From contig JAFQQW010000015.1 in the NCBI GenBank assembly GCA_017410375.1, positions 1 to 32,396 on the forward strand: 32,396 nt of DNA. Direction: 5' to 3'. The translations under genes and the position numbers were made by a program. Under the pieces are notes generated by a model. It saw only the letters and a list, made by a program, of their open reading frames with translations. It was not told the origin of the DNA and searched no databases. Below, piece after piece: positions 13,964-29,727 of the stretch. Position 1 is the first letter of the stretch. The number at the start of each line of letters is the position of its first letter. The stretch comes from Clostridia bacterium (GTDB lineage: Bacteria; Bacillota; Clostridia; RGIG6154).

Positions 13964-14557
13964 TTGTTTTACTTTGAACAAAATTATATCTGCTTTGAAG
14001 ATGGTATCAGTCATCCGTTAAACAGATGGCTTGCACAGCAAAGCTTAACAGACGAAAGGGTGTTTAAGCTTCTTTGCGGTGCACAGAAGGGACAAGGAAA
14101 AATAAACGCGCAGTTTAAAGACGGTAAACTTATGTTTGAGGGAGATGCGGCAGAAGTGGCAGTCGGCATGCTTAAAATTTTAGAGCTTCCCATAAACCGT
14201 TGCGAAAACTGCGGAAGATTTTTTGCACCACAAAGCCGTACGGATGAAAAGTATTGTAATTATGTCATGGACGGAGAAGAATCCTGCCGTAAAATCGGTG
14301 CAGGCAAAACCTTCCGCAAAAACAATGAAGGGGATGCGGGATACACAGAGTTTATGAAGCATACTAAGCATCTTCGGTATTTAAAGAACAAGGGAAAGCT
14401 TTCGGAAAGTGCGTTTAAGCAACAGTATGCGGAAGCTAAAAAATGGCTGGCGGAATACAGAAATGGGAATTTGCAGACTGAAAAAATTGCATCGGCTTTG
14501 CCCGAACCTGAAATCAAACCGCAGACAAGAGAAAATATTGCATCATATTTATTGTAA
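13964..14557 (+). CDS. Hypothetical zinc-ribbon-like protein (DUF6076-like)
   Basis: A 197-residue soluble protein. A four-cysteine cluster, C80-x2-C83 then C98 and C108 (in ENCGRFFAP ... EKYCNY ... EESC), looks like a small zinc-binding unit similar to DUF6076 proteins of Firmicutes. A Lys-rich helical region follows (about 120-170). Function is not known. The frame opens with TTG at 13964, about 5-7 bp after GGGAGGGG; no in-frame ATG is close to that site. It has its own promoter and lies between sfsA and galK. Confidence 0.6.
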   Translation: MFYFEQNYICFEDGISHPLNRWLAQQSLTDERVFKLLCGAQKGQGKINAQFKDGKLMFEGDAAEVAVGMLKILELPINRCENCGRFFAPQSRTDEKYCNYVMDGEESCRKIGAGKTFRKNNEGDAGYTEFMKHTKHLRYLKNKGKLSESAFKQQYAEAKKWLAEYRNGNLQTEKIASALPEPEIKPQTRENIASYLL

Positions 14558-14561
14558 AATT

Positions 14562-14586
14562 TTCAAAAAAGGCTTTCTTTTTTGAA
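14562..14586. other. AT-rich stem-loop before galK
   Basis: A 10-bp stem, TTCAAAAAAG/CTTTTTTGAA, with loop GCTTT lies just after the DUF6076-like gene. There is no T-run beyond the stem, so it is at best a weak terminator. It covers the expected -35 region for the galK -10 box TATACT at 14597-14602, whose own -35 box is poor. Confidence 0.4.
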
Positions 14587-14644
14587 GAAACTATGGTATA
14601 CTTTAGAAAATAACAGACTTTAATCAATAAAGGAGTTTAAGATT

Positions 14645-15835
14645 ATGCAGATTGCTGAAATCAAAAAAATGTTTTTAGAAACCTTTGGCGGTGAGGATAA
14701 GGATTTAAGAGTCTTTACTTCTCCGGGCCGTGTAAACTTAATCGGTGAACACGTGGATTATTGCGGCGGACCGGTATTTCCGGCGGCGCTTACCATGAAA
14801 ACCACCATCGTTGCAAGAAAGAGAAATGATAATAAAATCCGTTTAAAGGCAACCGACTTGGATATTCTGGTGGAAGCTGAAATCGGAGATCTGGAAAAAT
14901 GGAAAGGTCAGCTCAAATGGGGTGACTATCAGCTTGGTGTTGCTGTGGAAATGGAAAAAGCAGGGTACACCTTAACCGGTTGCGATTTGATGTATGACGA
15001 TACCGTTCCGCACGGCGGCGGTTTGTCTTCCTCTGCGGCAATTGAGGTATCTACCGCACTGATGTTTGCAAAATTCTCTAATGAAGCGAACGACAAGCCG
15101 GATGCACCCATTAACATGGTGGAAATGGCGCTGCTCAGCCAAAAAGCAGAACACAATTACATCGGTGTTAAATGCGGTATTATGGATCAGTTCGCTTCCG
15201 CAATGGGTAAAGCAGACCATGCAATTTTCTTAGATTGTGCAACCCTCGGCTATGAGCTGGTTCCGCTCAATTTAGGGGACTGCTGTCTGATTATTTCCAA
15301 CACCAACAAAAAGCATTCTTTAGGTGCGTCCAAATACAACGAGCGCCGTATGGAATGTGAAGCAGGTCTTAAGGCTCTGCAGACCGTAATGCCCGAAATC
15401 AAACAGCTTGCTGACGTTTCACCCGAAGAATTTGAACAGCATAAAGCGGTTATTACAGACCCCATCGTTCAAAAGAGAATCAAGCACGTTGTTCTGGAAT
15501 GTGCACGTGTACATAAGAGTGTGCAGGCACTTAAGGCAGGAGATATCGCAACCTTCGGTCAGTTGATGAATGATTCGCACGATTCGTTGCAGTACGATTA
15601 TGAAGTGTCTTGTGACGAGCTGGATATTTTGGCGCAGGAAGCAAGAAAATTGCCTTACGTTATCGGCTCAAGAATGACCGGTGCAGGCTTTGGCGGTTCT
15701 ACCGTAAGCATTGTAAAGACTGCCCATGCGCAGGATTTTATCAATACACTTGACCCGTTGTATGAAGAAAAGGTAGGCTATAAAGCTTCGTTCTACATTT
15801 CGGATATCGGCGACGGCGGTATGGAAGTTAAATAA
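14645..15835 (+). CDS. galK: Galactokinase
   Basis: A 396-residue GHMP-family kinase that phosphorylates alpha-D-galactose with ATP, the first committed Leloir step. The galactokinase signature GRVNLIGEHVDY is at 28-39, the ATP-binding motif PHGGGLSSSAA at 122-132, and the catalytic-type Asp181 in GIMDQFAS. The C-terminal motif GAGFGGS is also present. Length is typical. AAAGGAG lies 9-10 bp before ATG. A stem-loop separates it from the next gene, whose C-terminal half is a mutarotase-like domain that would make the alpha anomer galactokinase uses. galT and galE are not in the window. Confidence 0.96.
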   Translation: MQIAEIKKMFLETFGGEDKDLRVFTSPGRVNLIGEHVDYCGGPVFPAALTMKTTIVARKRNDNKIRLKATDLDILVEAEIGDLEKWKGQLKWGDYQLGVAVEMEKAGYTLTGCDLMYDDTVPHGGGLSSSAAIEVSTALMFAKFSNEANDKPDAPINMVEMALLSQKAEHNYIGVKCGIMDQFASAMGKADHAIFLDCATLGYELVPLNLGDCCLIISNTNKKHSLGASKYNERRMECEAGLKALQTVMPEIKQLADVSPEEFEQHKAVITDPIVQKRIKHVVLECARVHKSVQALKAGDIATFGQLMNDSHDSLQYDYEVSCDELDILAQEARKLPYVIGSRMTGAGFGGSTVSIVKTAHAQDFINTLDPLYEEKVGYKASFYISDIGDGGMEVK

Positions 15836-15838
15836 TAA

Positions 15839-15867
15839 AAAGGTAAGGCGATTTTCGCCTTACCTTT
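15839..15867 (+). terminator. Stem-loop after galK, possible leaky terminator
   Basis: A perfect 13-bp stem, AAAGGTAAGGCGA/TCGCCTTACCTTT, with a TTT loop, but only a broken T-run (CTTT-C-TT). It lies 21 bp before the next start codon. Partial read-through into the fusion gene is likely, since no separate promoter is visible between them. Confidence 0.6.
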
Positions 15868-15888
15868 CTTCACGAAAGGAAGAATCTG

Positions 15889-17316
15889 ATGGAACTGATA
15901 ATTGCAACCAATAATCAGGGGAAAGTGCGGGAATTTAAGAATAAGCTGAAAGATTATGAGGTTTTTTCCCTGAAAGATAAAGGTATTGACATTGAGGTAG
16001 AGGAAGACGGCACCACATTCGAGGAAAATGCGATAAAAAAAGCAAGAGCGGTTTGTGACCTGACCGGAAAGATGACCATTGCGGACGATTCGGGGTTAGA
16101 GGTGTTTGCACTTGATAATGCACCCGGCATTTATTCGGCCCGCTACGGCGGTGAGGGATTAAGCGACAAGCAGCGTTATATCAAGCTTTTGGAGGACATG
16201 GAAAACAAGACAGAGCGCGGTGCGCGATTTGTCAGCGTGATTGCCATCTGCTATCCGGACGGCAGAGACGTGACTCTCCGCGGTGAGTGCTACGGCGAGA
16301 TTTTAAAAGCTCCCGACGGGGACGGCGGATTCGGGTATGACCCGGTATTTTACTATCCGCCCTTAAATAAAACCTTTGGCACATTAACTTTGGAAGAGAA
16401 AAATGAAGTGAGCCACAGAGCAAGAGCACTTGAAAAGTTAGAACGCTTTTTCACAGATGAGTCAGTTGTGTTGGGCAACGGCGTTTTACATGCGGAAATT
16501 GTTGCCCGCGGTGCGGAGGTACGTAAGCTTGTCAATGTGAAAAACGGTGAGGATTTGCTGAATACCGATTTTAAGGTGTGGAATTATACAGCGCCTGCGC
16601 TGTTCCCGGTTCTGGGCAAGACCAAAGACGAGGCGGGCTATTACTACGGCGGAAAGCATTATGACATTAACCCCCACGGCTTTGCAAGAGAAAGCGTTTT
16701 TAAACTGGTGCATGCTTCCGAAACAACCGCAACCTATGTGCTTTGCGAAAACGAAAACACTTTAAAGAGTTATCCCTTTGCGTTCCGCTTTTATGTAACC
16801 CATACATTGGAGGAAAATTTCTGGAAAGTGGCTTATAAAGTAGAAAATACTGACAACAAGGCGCTGTTCTTTAACCTGGGTTCTCATGAAGCATACAAAC
16901 TTGGAGACGATTGGGAAAACTACTTCATTGAATACGAGAAGGAAGAAAATTTAAAAGAGAATATCTTAAAAACAAGGGCTTGGATGACACAGAAGAAATT
17001 CGGCACAAAAGAAAAAGTGCTTCCGATTTACAATGAAAACAGGAATCTCTTTTATTTCTCTAAAGATTTAAATTCCTCCTGGGTTCAGTTGAATTACAAA
17101 AATAAGCCGATTGTACGCGTGCATTATGACCTTGCCGATACGGTTTGTGTGGGCCTCTGGCGTGCAAGAAAAGGAAATTTCTACTGCATAGAGCCGTGGT
17201 TTGGTGTGGCGGATTCCCGGTATGAAAGTACCCATGCGGAAGAAAAAGAAGGACTTAACTGGTTACAGCCCGGAGCGTCCTTCGAAAGAAAGCATAAAAT
17301 GGAATTCTTTCTTTAA
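15889..17316 (+). CDS. Fusion protein: RdgB/HAM1 nucleotide pyrophosphatase + aldose-1-epimerase-like domain
   Basis: One uninterrupted 475-codon frame with two complete-looking enzymes. Residues 1-188 are a RdgB/HAM1 (ITPase) domain that hydrolyses non-canonical purine NTPs such as ITP, dITP and XTP to the monophosphate. It shows TNNQGKVREF (7-16), ADDSGL (65-70), GGFGYDPVF (146-154) and SHRARAL (175-181). Residues about 192-475 resemble a galactose-mutarotase/LacX-type domain, with its GNGVLHAEIVARGAEV opening, HGFAR near 263-267 and a C-terminal IEPW. Only about four residues join them. AAAGGAAG precedes the ATG. Position after galK suits the epimerase half. Domain identity is fairly sure; whether one polypeptide is really made should be checked. 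Confidence 0.85.
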   Translation: MELIIATNNQGKVREFKNKLKDYEVFSLKDKGIDIEVEEDGTTFEENAIKKARAVCDLTGKMTIADDSGLEVFALDNAPGIYSARYGGEGLSDKQRYIKLLEDMENKTERGARFVSVIAICYPDGRDVTLRGECYGEILKAPDGDGGFGYDPVFYYPPLNKTFGTLTLEEKNEVSHRARALEKLERFFTDESVVLGNGVLHAEIVARGAEVRKLVNVKNGEDLLNTDFKVWNYTAPALFPVLGKTKDEAGYYYGGKHYDINPHGFARESVFKLVHASETTATYVLCENENTLKSYPFAFRFYVTHTLEENFWKVAYKVENTDNKALFFNLGSHEAYKLGDDWENYFIEYEKEENLKENILKTRAWMTQKKFGTKEKVLPIYNENRNLFYFSKDLNSSWVQLNYKNKPIVRVHYDLADTVCVGLWRARKGNFYCIEPWFGVADSRYESTHAEEKEGLNWLQPGASFERKHKMEFFL

Positions 17317-17405: not shown

Positions 17406-17741
17406 TCAGTTTTTGAAAGATGCACAGTAGGTCTGATCGGACGTACCGCAGTCACAGCCTGCGCAGGCACAGGTTACATCAATGTCCGAGAGCATGCAAT
17501 GACAGTCTTCATTGTAGGTGCATTTTTGTGCGTCGCAGTGGATGGTGGTTTCGCCACCCTTTACAGAACAACCGCAGGAATTGACCATGTTGCCTGAGGG
17601 GGTGAAGGTTTTACAGCAGGTACTGTCTGCTTTTTCTGCGTCCTTACCGCCAATGTTGATGCCGTTTGCTGTGCAGTAGCTGTTGCTGTAAAAAGCACAG
17701 TCGGTTACGCCGCATTTTACTGTGTTTGTTTTGTTTTCCAT
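17406..17741 (-). CDS. DUF1540 domain protein, two Cys-rich repeats
   Basis: A 111-residue small protein with 16 or so cysteines arranged in two similar halves. The first opens with VKCGVTDCAFYSNSYC and the second with IHCDAQKCTYNEDCHC; each ends with a C-x-x-F pattern (CKTF, CASF). This is the DUF1540 layout, common in spore-forming Clostridia and probably metal-binding; its function is not established. AAAGGAG lies 9 bp before ATG. It converges with the fusion gene and is divergent from bofA. Confidence 0.85.
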   Translation of the reverse strand: MENKTNTVKCGVTDCAFYSNSYCTANGINIGGKDAEKADSTCCKTFTPSGNMVNSCGCSVKGGETTIHCDAQKCTYNEDCHCMLSDIDVTCACAGCDCGTSDQTYCASFKN

Positions 17742-23924: not shown

Positions 23925-24722
23925 ATGACGGTCAGACAGGCGTATGCATATTGCGTAGAAAAACTGGGTAAAGCCGACGGTGCCATCTTGTTTTCGCATT
24001 TGACTGGGATGAATACGGCACAAATGCTGTCTTCGCCCGATCAAAATACCGATGCAGATTTCGATGCGGCAATTCAAAGAGCATTGACTGGAGAGCCTAT
24101 TCAGTATATTGTGGGGACAACCGAATTTATGTCGCTTCCCTTTAAAGTGACTCCGGCGGTGCTCATTCCGCGTCAAGACACAGAAACATTGGTGGAGTTT
24201 GCTTTAGAGCAACTGAAAGACGTGAAAAATCCTGCAGGTTTAGACCTTTGTACCGGCTCGGGTTGTATTGCCGTTTCGTTGGCACACTATGCAGGTGCAA
24301 AGATGCAGGCTGTGGATTTAAGTGCACAGGCACTTGCGGTGGCAAAGGAAAACGGTGCTGAAAACCGTGTACAGATTCAATGGATTTTAGCAGACGCAAA
24401 GACGTTTTCGGATGCAGAAAATGTAGATTTTGTGGTTTCTAACCCGCCCTATATTGAATCGGCGGTGGTGGACAGTTTAGAGAAAAAAGTTAAGGATTTC
24501 GAGCCGCGCATGGCTTTAGACGGTGGTGCGGATGGCTTGGACTTTTACGGATGCATTGCAAAAAACAGTAAAAAAATGCTGAAAAAAGGCGGTTTTCTGG
24601 CGGTGGAAATCGGATACAATCAGGGGAACGCTGTAAAAAACATCTTTGAAAGTGTTTTTGAAAACACGGTTGTGCTGCAGGATTTATGCGGTAATGACCG
24701 GGTGGTGTATGCATTCAAGTGA
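23925..24722 (+). CDS. prmC: Peptide chain release factor N5-glutamine methyltransferase
   Basis: A 265-residue SAM-dependent enzyme that methylates the glutamine of the GGQ motif in release factors RF1 and RF2. The N-terminal helical domain is followed by IPRQDTE (81-87), the SAM-binding LCTGSGCIAV (108-117) and the catalytic NPPY (173-176). ATG at 23925 is 1 bp after the DUF1385 stop, with GGAG inside the previous gene; a longer frame from 23871 overlaps that gene and is not preferred. The usual partner prfA does not follow; a surface-protein gene does. Confidence 0.95.
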   Translation: MTVRQAYAYCVEKLGKADGAILFSHLTGMNTAQMLSSPDQNTDADFDAAIQRALTGEPIQYIVGTTEFMSLPFKVTPAVLIPRQDTETLVEFALEQLKDVKNPAGLDLCTGSGCIAVSLAHYAGAKMQAVDLSAQALAVAKENGAENRVQIQWILADAKTFSDAENVDFVVSNPPYIESAVVDSLEKKVKDFEPRMALDGGADGLDFYGCIAKNSKKMLKKGGFLAVEIGYNQGNAVKNIFESVFENTVVLQDLCGNDRVVYAFK

Positions 24723-24729
24723 GGGATAT

Positions 24730-27700
24730 ATGAAAAAGAGATTGGTTGCGGGGGTGCTTTTGTGTCTGTTTCTGATGCAAAGCACGGTCTTTGCGCATTG
24801 GGCGGACCCGTATTGCACACTGCTACAGAAAAATCAAATCATGTTTGGGGATGAACAGGGCTTCCGTGCGGATGACCCTTTGCTTCGGTGCGAATTTGCG
24901 GCTATGCTCAATCGCGCCTTTTCTTTTTCGGTAAAAAGCAGTGCAGACATGCCGGATGTACCAAAAAATGCCTGGTATTACAAGGATTGTGCGATATTAT
25001 ATAATGCAGGTGTGCTGACGGGGGATGAAAACAAACACATCAACCCCGAGCAAACCGTAACCCGTGCGGAAATGGCGGTTATGCTGAGCCGTGCCATGGG
25101 ACTTTCGGTGCAGAATAAAAAAAGCCCCGATGTGGAGGATGCTCCGAACTGGGCATACGGTGCGGTGCTTGCTTTAGAGGAAATGAATATTGTTTCGGGC
25201 TATCCGGACGGCACATTCCGCGGAAACAACAATCTGCTTCGGGGTGAAGCGGCGGCGGTGCTTGCCAAAATCTTAGAGGCGGGTGCTTTTTCGGGCGGAA
25301 ACGGCAGTATTGCAAATCCGTACCGCATCACAAAGCCGGAGCAGTTTGCGTTTATCAGTACGGACAGGACGGCGTCTTACCGCTTGATGTGTGATGTGGT
25401 TTTTGATGAGATTCCCATGCCGGTTATCGGAAGTAAAGAAATGCCGTTTAACGGGACTTTTGACGGCGGTTTTTATCGGATTATTGCCAAAAACAGTCAG
25501 GACGCCAGCAATGTACTGTTCGGCTGTGTTGGCTTGAGCGGTATGGTTACAAAGGTGCGTTTGCTTTGCCCCGATACCCGTATGGCTCTTTGTGATACCA
25601 ATAATGGTAAAATTACCCTTTGTGCCAACACCTCCTTTATAAACGGTACGCCTGACTATGTAAAGCAGTTTGGCGGTATTGCCTATGAAAACTACGGAAA
25701 AATTGACCGTTGTTACAATGCCTCGGATGTGGTGGCGCTGGATGCAGAGCATACGGCAGGCGGTATTGCGGGCTTGAATGACGGCACGGTGGAAAATTGC
25801 TTTAATGTGGGAACTGTGGCGAAAAGCTGTGGTGCGATTGCAGGTGAAAACAAGGGGAAAATTCAGAATTGCTATACCCTTTCCGGTGAAATCACAAACA
25901 GCGGTAAAGGTACCGAAACAAATGTGTACAGCGGTAAAAATCCGGGTGCGCATTTTTCGGCGGAAGCTTTTGTGCCGCAGAACCGTGTAACGGGTATCGC
26001 GGATTTCCCGTTTATGGGTAATGAAAATTTTACACACTATGCAGGCGGCGAAGGGGTTTTGGATAATCCTTATCGGATTGAAACGATTGCACAGTTTGAA
26101 AATATTTCTGAAAATCCGGATAAATTTTTTGTACAGACCGCAGATCTTAAAGGTATAACCCGAAGCGTTTTCGATTTTTCGGGTGTATATGACGGCAATG
26201 GCTACAAACTGCAAACCGTACGCTTGCAGGCAGACGCGGATACGGCATTGTTTTTACAAAATGACGGCGTTTTGAAAAACGTACACATTACCGACGGCTC
26301 AATCCGCTCAAAAAATAATGTGGCAGGTCTGGCGATGCACAACAACGGTCAAATCAGCGGTTGCTTTTTCGAGGGAAGCCTTTCGGGTGGAAGCTCTGCA
26401 GGACTTGTGTATCAGAACGGAAAGCAGGGCATTATTTCTGAAAGCTACACCCTCGGCAGAATTGAAGCAGGCGGTCGGGCATCGGGACTTGTTTTCCAAA
26501 ACGACGGGACTGTTTCAGATGTGTACAGTGCGGCAGAGGTACTGAGTGCCCAAGGCTGTGGTATTGCGTTTTACAATTCGGGTAGCTTGAAATCGGCATA
26601 TTTTGCAGGCTCGATGCCACAAGGGTCGGGAGGTCTGATATACAGTAACAGCGGAACGGCAATTTACGGGTACACCTTTCTGGAGCCTGCCGTTCTGACA
26701 AACAACGGAAAAACAGAAAATGTGGTTACTGCGGCACAAAGTCAGATGAAAAACATAGATATGTATTTCGGCTTTGATACGATTCATGTGTGGGAGTCTT
26801 CGGCAGACGGTGCATATCCTTATCCCGTGCTGACTAAAAATCCGCACTATACTGTGCAGTATACCGAGAATTATACCGAGTTTGCAGGCGGTGACGGCAG
26901 TGCGAACAACCCTTATAAGATTGTGACGCCGAAGCATTTGCAGAAGGTAAAGGACTATCCGGGTGCGCACTTTATTCTGATGAACAATCTGAATCTGGCA
27001 GAGACGCAAACCGATTCAAAGGCGCTGGTTGCGGATGTGTTTTACGGTACCTTTAACGGAAACCGTATGCAGATTTTAGGGCTTTCGGGTGACAAACCGC
27101 TTTTCGGCGAAAACTACGGAAGTGTTTCGGCGCTCTATATTAAAGATGCGAATCTTTCGGGTGAAAGCATAGCACCCTTTGCAATGAAAAATTACGGCAC
27201 GATTTCAAAATGCAGTTTTATCGGCGATATGCAGGCGGAAAACGGTGCAGGTCTGGTGCTTGCAAATGAAGGAAGAATAGAACTCTGTAATACCGACGGG
27301 AATTTTAACGGCAGCTATCTGGCGGGATTGGTGCTTTCAAACAGCGGTACGGTTTTGGAATGCCATTCTGCGGTGCGTATGTCGGGTAAAGAAGCTTACG
27401 GTCTTGTGAAAAATGACGGCGGTACGGTATCTGACAGTTGGTTTGGCGGATATCTTACAGCCAATAATCTGTATCCCACCGCACAAGCAGGTGTGAAAAA
27501 CTGTTATTATCTGAATTACTACGGAAGAGCGGACAGCGAAGCAAAAAGTATTGCGGATTTTCGTGACAATCCGCCTCGGCTTGGCGAAAACTGGCAACAA
27601 AAAGACGGATTCCCGGTCTTAAAAAATATGCCGGAAATGACCTTGCCGTTATTTGATATGGAAGGGGACGGCAGTGCGGAAAATCCGTACAAAATCCGTC

Positions 27701-29727
27701 TGGCAAATCAGCTTCGGTATCTGGGCATGTACCCCGACAGGCATTTTGTGCTGGTGCAGAATATTAAAGCAAACGACTTGCTTTTTACACCGGTAGAAAC
27801 GTTCCGTGGCGTGCTGGACGGCAATCAGAAAACGATATCCCTTTTGACTGTTTATGGAGAACAGGCAGGTCTTGTACAGCGCTTGGAAGGAAAAATCAAG
27901 AATCTGATTTTTGCTGATGTTATGGCGGAAGGCAGAGCGGAAACCGGAGCGGTTGCGGCAATCAACAGCGGTGTTATAGAAAACTGTACCGTTAAAAGCG
28001 GAAGAATCGGAACGGCAGGTCTGTACGCAGGTGGTATCTGTGGTCGGAATGCCGGAGACGGACTTTTAGACAGATGTGAAAATGGTGGCGATGTATTTTC
28101 GGCATATGCAACCGGCGGTGTGTCGGGCATCAATGAAGGCACGGTCGTGCTGTGCAGAAATATCGGTGGTGCGGTGGCAACTGCCCAGGCAGTGCAGGGA
28201 ATTGCCGGTGGTATTGCAGGCGTGAATAACGGTGTGATTGACCGGTGCTATAATAACGGCAAAATTTTTGCGTATTCCGAATCGGAAGCGTCAAATGCCG
28301 GCGGTATTGCAGGTTTGCAGCAAAACAGCATTTCCAATGGGTACAACACCGGCGAAATCCATGCAAAAGCAAAGAAACAGGCATATGCAGGCGGTATTGC
28401 AGGTGTGAGCGCGAAAAAAACAGAAATCCGTGCTTGCTATAATACGGGCTTTACCAATGCAACTGCAGATGAAACCGGTATGGGTTCGGCTTCAGGCAAG
28501 GCGAACGGCGGTACGCTTTACGGCTTTGTACATGAGAACACGGTGGCAGAGCCGGTGGGAGCAGGGGCTATGAAAGAGGATTTTGTGACCCCGCAGGCGA
28601 TTGACGTGATGTATCGCAAGGAAGGATACAAAACCTTCGATTTTGACTCTGTTTGGGGCTTTGAATACGACAACGGTTTTTATACGGCTCAGCTGAAGGA
28701 AAACCCACAAAAAATTAAAATTGCGGAAGAAAATCTGACCGATTTTGCAGGTGGTGACGGCAGTATGGATAACCCCTACAGAATCTTAACCCCTGAGCAA
28801 CTGAACAATGTTCGTAAACATTTGGGAGCAACCTTTGTGCTTTTAGGTGATATTGATATGTCAGGCTATTGCAAAGCGCGTTCCTTTAAGCCTATCGGGG
28901 ACAATGTATTCAGCTTTTACGGGTTGTTTGTGGGAAATAATTATCAGATTTCGGGCTTGAAAATAGACGGAGAAGAGTTTGGTTTGTTCCGTGAAAATCA
29001 TGGTGAAATCTACAACTGCTTCTTTGAGGATATCTCGGGCAACGGCTCGGGCGGTACAGTTGCGGCGTATAACACGGGTCTGATTTATAACTGTATGCAA
29101 ATCGGTGCGCAGCAGGCAACAGGAAATAGCGAAAATGTCAACCGAGGCGGTCTGGTGGGCGTAAACAAGAGCACCGGCATGGTGATTTCTTCTTACAATG
29201 CAGGCGATATTTCGGTGCAGGGTGAAAATGTGCAGGTGGGCGGTATCGCGTACGGCAATCATGGTGTGATTTCCGGCTCGTTTAATTCGGGAGAAATTAC
29301 GGCAAACGCACAAAAGCTTTCGGTTTCGGGCGGTATTGCGGCACACAATTTCGGTATTGTGTCGGATTGCTACAGCGCCAATACCATACGGGCTGAATCC
29401 GAAATTGCGCAAAACAGCTTTGCAGGCGGTATTGTAGGCAATAACGGTGGTACGGTGGTGAACACGTATTTCAGCGGTGATTCGGTTTCGGCAAGTAATT
29501 TCGGCAGTATTGCGGCAACCAATACCTCTGCGGTGTATAATGGCTATTATATGGGCAGGCAGGGCATTGGCAGGGACAACGGCAGCTCGGAAAATGTGAT
29601 GCAATGCACCGACCAACAGCTTAAGATGCACGATACTTTTGCAGGGTTCGATTTTGAAAATATGTGGATTATGGACGCTTCTTTTAAATATCCGTATCCC
29701 CAGTTTATTGAAATTGCACACAGATAA
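24730..29727 (+). CDS. Very large SLH/GLUG-repeat surface protein
   Basis: A 1665-residue exported protein. The signal peptide spans 1-22 (MKKRLVAGVLLCLFLMQS..., likely cut after VFA). Three SLH units lie at about 23-66, 75-125 and 134-184, with CEFAAM, TRAEMA and RGEAAA motifs for binding the cell-wall polymer. The rest is five modules, each opened by GG-x-G-x-x-x-NPY(R/K)I at 25288, 26038, 26881, 27658 and 28744, followed by many GLUG-type strands such as GGIAGVNNGVIDRCYN. Such repeats fold as a beta-solenoid and are common in adhesin-like proteins; the binding partner is unknown. GAGGG overlaps the prmC stop codon, giving close coupling. A longer frame starting inside prmC is rejected because the signal peptide begins at 24730. 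Confidence 0.9.
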   Translation: MKKRLVAGVLLCLFLMQSTVFAHWADPYCTLLQKNQIMFGDEQGFRADDPLLRCEFAAMLNRAFSFSVKSSADMPDVPKNAWYYKDCAILYNAGVLTGDENKHINPEQTVTRAEMAVMLSRAMGLSVQNKKSPDVEDAPNWAYGAVLALEEMNIVSGYPDGTFRGNNNLLRGEAAAVLAKILEAGAFSGGNGSIANPYRITKPEQFAFISTDRTASYRLMCDVVFDEIPMPVIGSKEMPFNGTFDGGFYRIIAKNSQDASNVLFGCVGLSGMVTKVRLLCPDTRMALCDTNNGKITLCANTSFINGTPDYVKQFGGIAYENYGKIDRCYNASDVVALDAEHTAGGIAGLNDGTVENCFNVGTVAKSCGAIAGENKGKIQNCYTLSGEITNSGKGTETNVYSGKNPGAHFSAEAFVPQNRVTGIADFPFMGNENFTHYAGGEGVLDNPYRIETIAQFENISENPDKFFVQTADLKGITRSVFDFSGVYDGNGYKLQTVRLQADADTALFLQNDGVLKNVHITDGSIRSKNNVAGLAMHNNGQISGCFFEGSLSGGSSAGLVYQNGKQGIISESYTLGRIEAGGRASGLVFQNDGTVSDVYSAAEVLSAQGCGIAFYNSGSLKSAYFAGSMPQGSGGLIYSNSGTAIYGYTFLEPAVLTNNGKTENVVTAAQSQMKNIDMYFGFDTIHVWESSADGAYPYPVLTKNPHYTVQYTENYTEFAGGDGSANNPYKIVTPKHLQKVKDYPGAHFILMNNLNLAETQTDSKALVADVFYGTFNGNRMQILGLSGDKPLFGENYGSVSALYIKDANLSGESIAPFAMKNYGTISKCSFIGDMQAENGAGLVLANEGRIELCNTDGNFNGSYLAGLVLSNSGTVLECHSAVRMSGKEAYGLVKNDGGTVSDSWFGGYLTANNLYPTAQAGVKNCYYLNYYGRADSEAKSIADFRDNPPRLGENWQQKDGFPVLKNMPEMTLPLFDMEGDGSAENPYKIRLANQLRYLGMYPDRHFVLVQNIKANDLLFTPVETFRGVLDGNQKTISLLTVYGEQAGLVQRLEGKIKNLIFADVMAEGRAETGAVAAINSGVIENCTVKSGRIGTAGLYAGGICGRNAGDGLLDRCENGGDVFSAYATGGVSGINEGTVVLCRNIGGAVATAQAVQGIAGGIAGVNNGVIDRCYNNGKIFAYSESEASNAGGIAGLQQNSISNGYNTGEIHAKAKKQAYAGGIAGVSAKKTEIRACYNTGFTNATADETGMGSASGKANGGTLYGFVHENTVAEPVGAGAMKEDFVTPQAIDVMYRKEGYKTFDFDSVWGFEYDNGFYTAQLKENPQKIKIAEENLTDFAGGDGSMDNPYRILTPEQLNNVRKHLGATFVLLGDIDMSGYCKARSFKPIGDNVFSFYGLFVGNNYQISGLKIDGEEFGLFRENHGEIYNCFFEDISGNGSGGTVAAYNTGLIYNCMQIGAQQATGNSENVNRGGLVGVNKSTGMVISSYNAGDISVQGENVQVGGIAYGNHGVISGSFNSGEITANAQKLSVSGGIAAHNFGIVSDCYSANTIRAESEIAQNSFAGGIVGNNGGTVVNTYFSGDSVSASNFGSIAATNTSAVYNGYYMGRQGIGRDNGSSENVMQCTDQQLKMHDTFAGFDFENMWIMDASFKYPYPQFIEIAHR

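Follow-up and report, generated by a model that had tools for sequence, protein, structure and literature searches.

Enzymes of the RdgB/HAM1 family hydrolyse dITP, XTP and ITP and are homodimers. The usual protein, represented by Ham1 of S. aureus (PDB 4bnq) and RdgB of E. coli (PDB 1k7k), ends at about residue 195. RdgB also occurs in frame with other domains, as in RNase PH-RdgB and RdgB-QueA proteins, and NCBIfam NF002698 (PRK02491) is a longer RdgB model with an N-terminal extension. LacX-type proteins are represented by structures from L. acidophilus (PDB 3dcd) and L. casei (PDB 3q1n), and a mutarotase fused to another enzyme is known from yeast Gal10 (PDB 1z45), which joins UDP-galactose 4-epimerase and galactose mutarotase. 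Here we analyzed a stretch of 32,396 nucleotides from a Clostridia bacterium (the window), in which an RdgB domain is followed in the same reading frame by a LacX-type domain.

An RdgB domain and a LacX-type domain share one reading frame

The gene located at positions 15889-17316 (plus strand) is a single open frame of 475 amino acids with zero internal stops. The features of this gene and of the region upstream are:

14645-15835, plus strand: galK, galactokinase (above the cut-off of NCBIfam NF003705), directly upstream of the fusion in all three species of the genus
15837-15869, no strand assigned: hairpin with a 15 bp stem in the gap between galK and the fusion, terminator-like on the minus strand in a scan whose number of sites is not above that of shuffled sequences
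15889-16458, plus strand: RdgB/HAM1-type XTP/dITP diphosphatase domain, residues 1-190 (PF01725, NF011397, PDB 4bnq, motifs)
16444-16470, plus strand: junction, with about two residues between the RdgB helix and the LacX strand (alignment, model)
16459-17313, plus strand: LacX-type aldose 1-epimerase (galactose-mutarotase-like) domain, residues 191-475 (PF01263, PDB 3dcd, PDB 3q1n, Foldseek)

Residues 3-186 match Ham1p_like (Pfam PF01725, E value 4e-65); the match covers model positions 1-185 of 186 and reaches 219.5 bits with a curated cut-off of 22.5, which places this half in the RdgB/HAM1 family at full length. It likewise exceeds the curated cut-off for the NCBIfam XTP/dITP diphosphatase NF011397 (247.6 versus 234), and PDB 4bnq matches it with an E value of 3e-52. 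The RdgB motifs ATNNQGK, EEDGTTFEENA, ADDSGLEV, PGIYSARY, GGFGYDPVF and SHR are present, and the columns of the active-site motifs NxxK, FEEN, DDSGL, YSAR, GFGYDP and SHR are invariant or nearly so in ten RdgB sequences. This half shares the full domain, all motifs and a close structural match with the S. aureus and E. coli proteins, but the fusion adds a C-terminal enzyme domain of 285 residues.

Residues 192-359 match Aldose_epim (Pfam PF01263, E value 1e-16) with 61.7 bits, the curated cut-off being 27. Since the alignment with the LacX-type structure 3dcd spans residues 196-471, the epimerase-like domain is full length; 3q1n was also matched. The complete LacX-type domain spans about residues 193-475 and directly follows the complete ITPase. 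An earlier sequence-only reading of this DNA had proposed an in-frame fusion of these two domains with a very short joint, and both points were borne out, the former by Pfam, NCBIfam, PDB 3dcd and the uninterrupted frame, the latter by an alignment of the three species of the genus (the window's genome, G001 and G002) that has no gap at the junction.

An AlphaFold2 model, calculated from an alignment of nine sequences, showed that both domains fold (mean pLDDT 85.7, pTM 0.77). In this model the last RdgB helix (residues 176-190) is separated by about two residues from the first LacX strand (residues 193-196). A Foldseek search with the model ranked LacX-type and HAM1 structures at the top, and 3dcd was matched with an E value of 1e-24 and a TMt of 0.81, showing a full-length LacX-type fold.

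Production of a separate epimerase from an internal start was considered and rejected, since neither a conserved in-frame start across the fused copies nor a convincing Shine-Dalgarno-like motif was found at the junction, and the window has no internal start bearing such a motif. A weak AAGG ahead of an ATG at residue 184 is present in G002 only.

The fusion is found in one genus of gut Clostridia

Each of the three species that represent the genus in the genome set has the same domain order, in three separate assemblies. The two relatives are uncultured Clostridia, one of them from sheep rectum. The fusion of G002 has 475 amino acids and shares 59% identity with the window's protein, and that of G001 shares 61% identity over 420 amino acids, after which the contig ends. 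The family's three remaining genera have rdgB as an unfused gene. An occurrence as two genes in related strains had been named beforehand as an observation that would speak against the fusion; it is not seen within the genus but is seen in those three genera.

Outside the genus, no fusion was present among the matches listed for 391 evenly sampled genomes of the class and for a sample of 398 genomes from the phylum. A fusion would outscore a lone RdgB and hence rank near the top of such match lists; both sets are samples, and further occurrences are possible. Plasmid and phage collections contained no match covering 80% of the fusion query, and in viral contigs relatives of RdgB were found but not of LacX. 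These data confirmed that the fusion is genuine and, in the sampled genomes of the class and phylum, confined to one small genus of gut Clostridia. No description of an RdgB-LacX fusion was found in the open-access literature on RdgB/ITPase fusions, which agrees with the initial impression that it had not been reported; the domain pairing is conserved and apparently undescribed.

A single RdgB, the fused copy, was detected in the window's genome; the only detected RdgB of this organism thus sits inside a two-enzyme protein. Two proteins of the epimerase family were found in the same genome, the fused domain and a separate canonical GalM encoded on another contig.

The galactose gene context is older than the fusion

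In G001 and G002 the genes are arranged in the order galT-galK-rdgB::lacX. An unfused rdgB in the order galT-galK-rdgB is found in G003, which belongs to the family of this genus, and in G022, G056 and G082 of a second family (f18), and G005 carries galK-rdgB with the epimerase domain absent. Because galK and rdgB are adjacent without an epimerase in these five genomes, the galactose context goes with rdgB and precedes the fusion. The earlier statement linking the position behind galK to the epimerase half is therefore misleading. The remark that nothing evident would bring the two enzymes together loses weight as well, since any gene landing behind rdgB would become the end of a galactose operon.

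The window lacks galT ahead of galK (14557-14645), where it is present in both sister species and in G003. Another GalP_UDP_transf protein, with an open frame of 503 residues, is encoded on contig C58 of the window's genome.

In a tree of 42 LacX domains, the three fused ones group together (support 100/100), and their common stem is 1.35 changes per site long; there is thus good support for the fused form having arisen once. The LacX of G003 is located elsewhere in this tree. Direct descent of the fused LacX from the family's own LacX, as represented by G003, obtained no support from the tree, in which the long stem makes the placement unsure. Adjacent but unfused rdgB and lacX genes were not found in the loci examined; the intermediate step is unseen.

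Active-site residues and divergence of the LacX-type half

Residues H263, H333 and E435 match residues that are found in all 39 comparison sequences and represent the catalytic His, His and Glu. Every fused copy keeps H263 and H333, and E435 is kept in both copies that extend to this position (the window's genome, G000, and G002). In related mutarotases, the counterparts of these residues are proposed to act as general acid/base and in binding of the substrate (PMC5902678); the positions were matched to those of that work with our own family alignment. The fused domain shares the full-length fold and the conserved His, His and Glu with the LacX-type proteins from L. acidophilus and L. casei, but differs from them in having no start of its own, in its divergence from the sampled stand-alone LacX proteins and in changes of several otherwise conserved residues. 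The family-conserved positions altered in the fused group are S213, W224, F349 and F384.

Within the genus, identity is 44-55% in the LacX half; the RdgB half reaches 70-83% and galK 80-82%. In three other genera, where the two are separate genes, LacX shows 59-99% and RdgB 62-96% identity, and the difference between the two is reduced or disappears. Third codon positions, most likely saturated, differ at 53-65% of sites. In both halves, the first and second codon positions have changed less than the third, and both halves thus still look like selected protein.

Interpretation of the fusion

We interpret the gene as encoding a bifunctional protein of two complete, independent enzymes that arose by one fusion in the ancestor of the genus and brought both under shared expression, a reading to which we assign a probability of about 0.7. 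The N-terminal half is predicted to release pyrophosphate from ITP, dITP and XTP by hydrolysis, leaving the monophosphate. For the C-terminal half, the predicted reaction is interconversion of aldose anomers, possibly those of galactose ahead of GalK, and the two halves would fold and act independently of each other. In the genus ancestor, a LacX-type gene only distantly related to the LacX of the relatives probably landed behind rdgB, at a time when rdgB would already have been the last gene of the galT-galK-rdgB cluster, and the stop between rdgB and lacX would then have been lost. The history of the fusion thus seems readable as an old cluster followed by one joining at its end. The consequence of the joining is most likely shared expression at the end of the galactose operon and not substrate channelling, which is disfavoured because, to our knowledge, no metabolite connects ITP hydrolysis with hexose mutarotation. 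An odd fusion would here be explicable by gene order and not by shared chemistry, which cautions against taking 'Rosetta stone' links as functional partnership.

An artefact in the form of a missed frameshift or stop, or of an assembly chimera at about position 16455, could be suspected since both relatives come from metagenomic draft assemblies; however, three species in three assemblies agree in architecture and in a gapless junction, and no start with a Shine-Dalgarno-like motif is located at the junction in the window, so that this explanation is refuted for practical purposes. A point against two fully active enzymes is the lower conservation of the LacX half compared to the RdgB half, which is more pronounced than in the three other genera, and given this fast divergence the function of the LacX half may be relaxed or changed. 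We consider it possible, though rather doubtful, that only the RdgB half is strongly selected and that the LacX half is a tolerated C-terminal passenger, slowly decaying or changing its role. Such a passenger would be consistent with the identity values within and outside the genus, with the deviations at S213, W224, F349 and F384, and with the second mutarotase, since a canonical GalM elsewhere in the genome possibly already covers galactose mutarotation. It agrees less well with the lack of stops and frameshifts in two complete copies and one cut by a contig end despite saturated third positions, with the retention of H263, H333, E435 and most invariant residues, and with a structure model that is confident across most of the LacX domain.

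The very short joint of conserved length, the accelerated divergence of the sugar domain among the fused proteins and the long-standing position of rdgB beside galT-galK could also point to a functional coupling: a sugar or nucleotide-sugar would be sensed or processed by the C-terminal domain, which would thereby regulate the ITPase half or pass its product on to it. We regard this as improbable, as the two reactions have no known metabolite in common, the active sites of both halves look standard, and the rdgB of relatives lies in the gal cluster without any sugar domain. It is likewise improbable that the sugar domain, changing quickly once fused, has acquired a new role tied to the ITPase, such as sensing of galactose or acting on a sugar released from non-canonical nucleotides or nucleotide-sugars; if true, this role would couple nucleotide cleaning to galactose use. 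The independent action of two complete enzymes remains our preferred reading.

Comparison with other fusions and further genes in the window

Like Gal10, the fusion combines a mutarotase with another enzyme in the context of galactose metabolism. The partner in Gal10 is a Leloir enzyme and its mutarotase is a canonical GalM, whereas the partner here is a nucleotide-pool enzyme; with PF01725 as its N-terminal domain, the protein is not a GalE-type epimerase joined to GalM. The other RdgB fusions likewise carry RdgB in frame with another domain but have different partners, and the partner in NF002698 also differs from LacX. Two such proteins were observed in the genomes analyzed, RNase PH with RdgB (L072:724-2106, G189:C8; 460 amino acids) and RdgB with a QueA-type queuosine synthesis protein (PF02547; L074:1492-3156, G037:C51; 554 amino acids), both in frame.

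The search for LacX in the 391 genomes of the class listed about 100 matches, and besides the genus the only confirmed fusion among them is a Sir2-LacX protein of G047. This protein of 518 amino acids (L048:787-2343, G047:C6) combines a Sir2-family domain (PF02146) in frame with a LacX-type aldose-epimerase; as in the RdgB-LacX fusion, the LacX-type domain forms the C-terminal part behind a housekeeping enzyme of unrelated kind, in this case a sirtuin. A long LacX frame in G116 contains no recognisable second domain, as judged by reading the translation alone.

Just downstream of the fusion, a small cysteine-rich protein with two DUF1540 repeats is encoded on the minus strand (17406-17741). 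An open reading frame of 1693 amino acids (24646-29727) contains S-layer homology domains and has no further Pfam match. A Tn916-type integrase (PF02920 and PF00589) is located at the contig end (31158-32348), which suggests the boundary of a mobile element.
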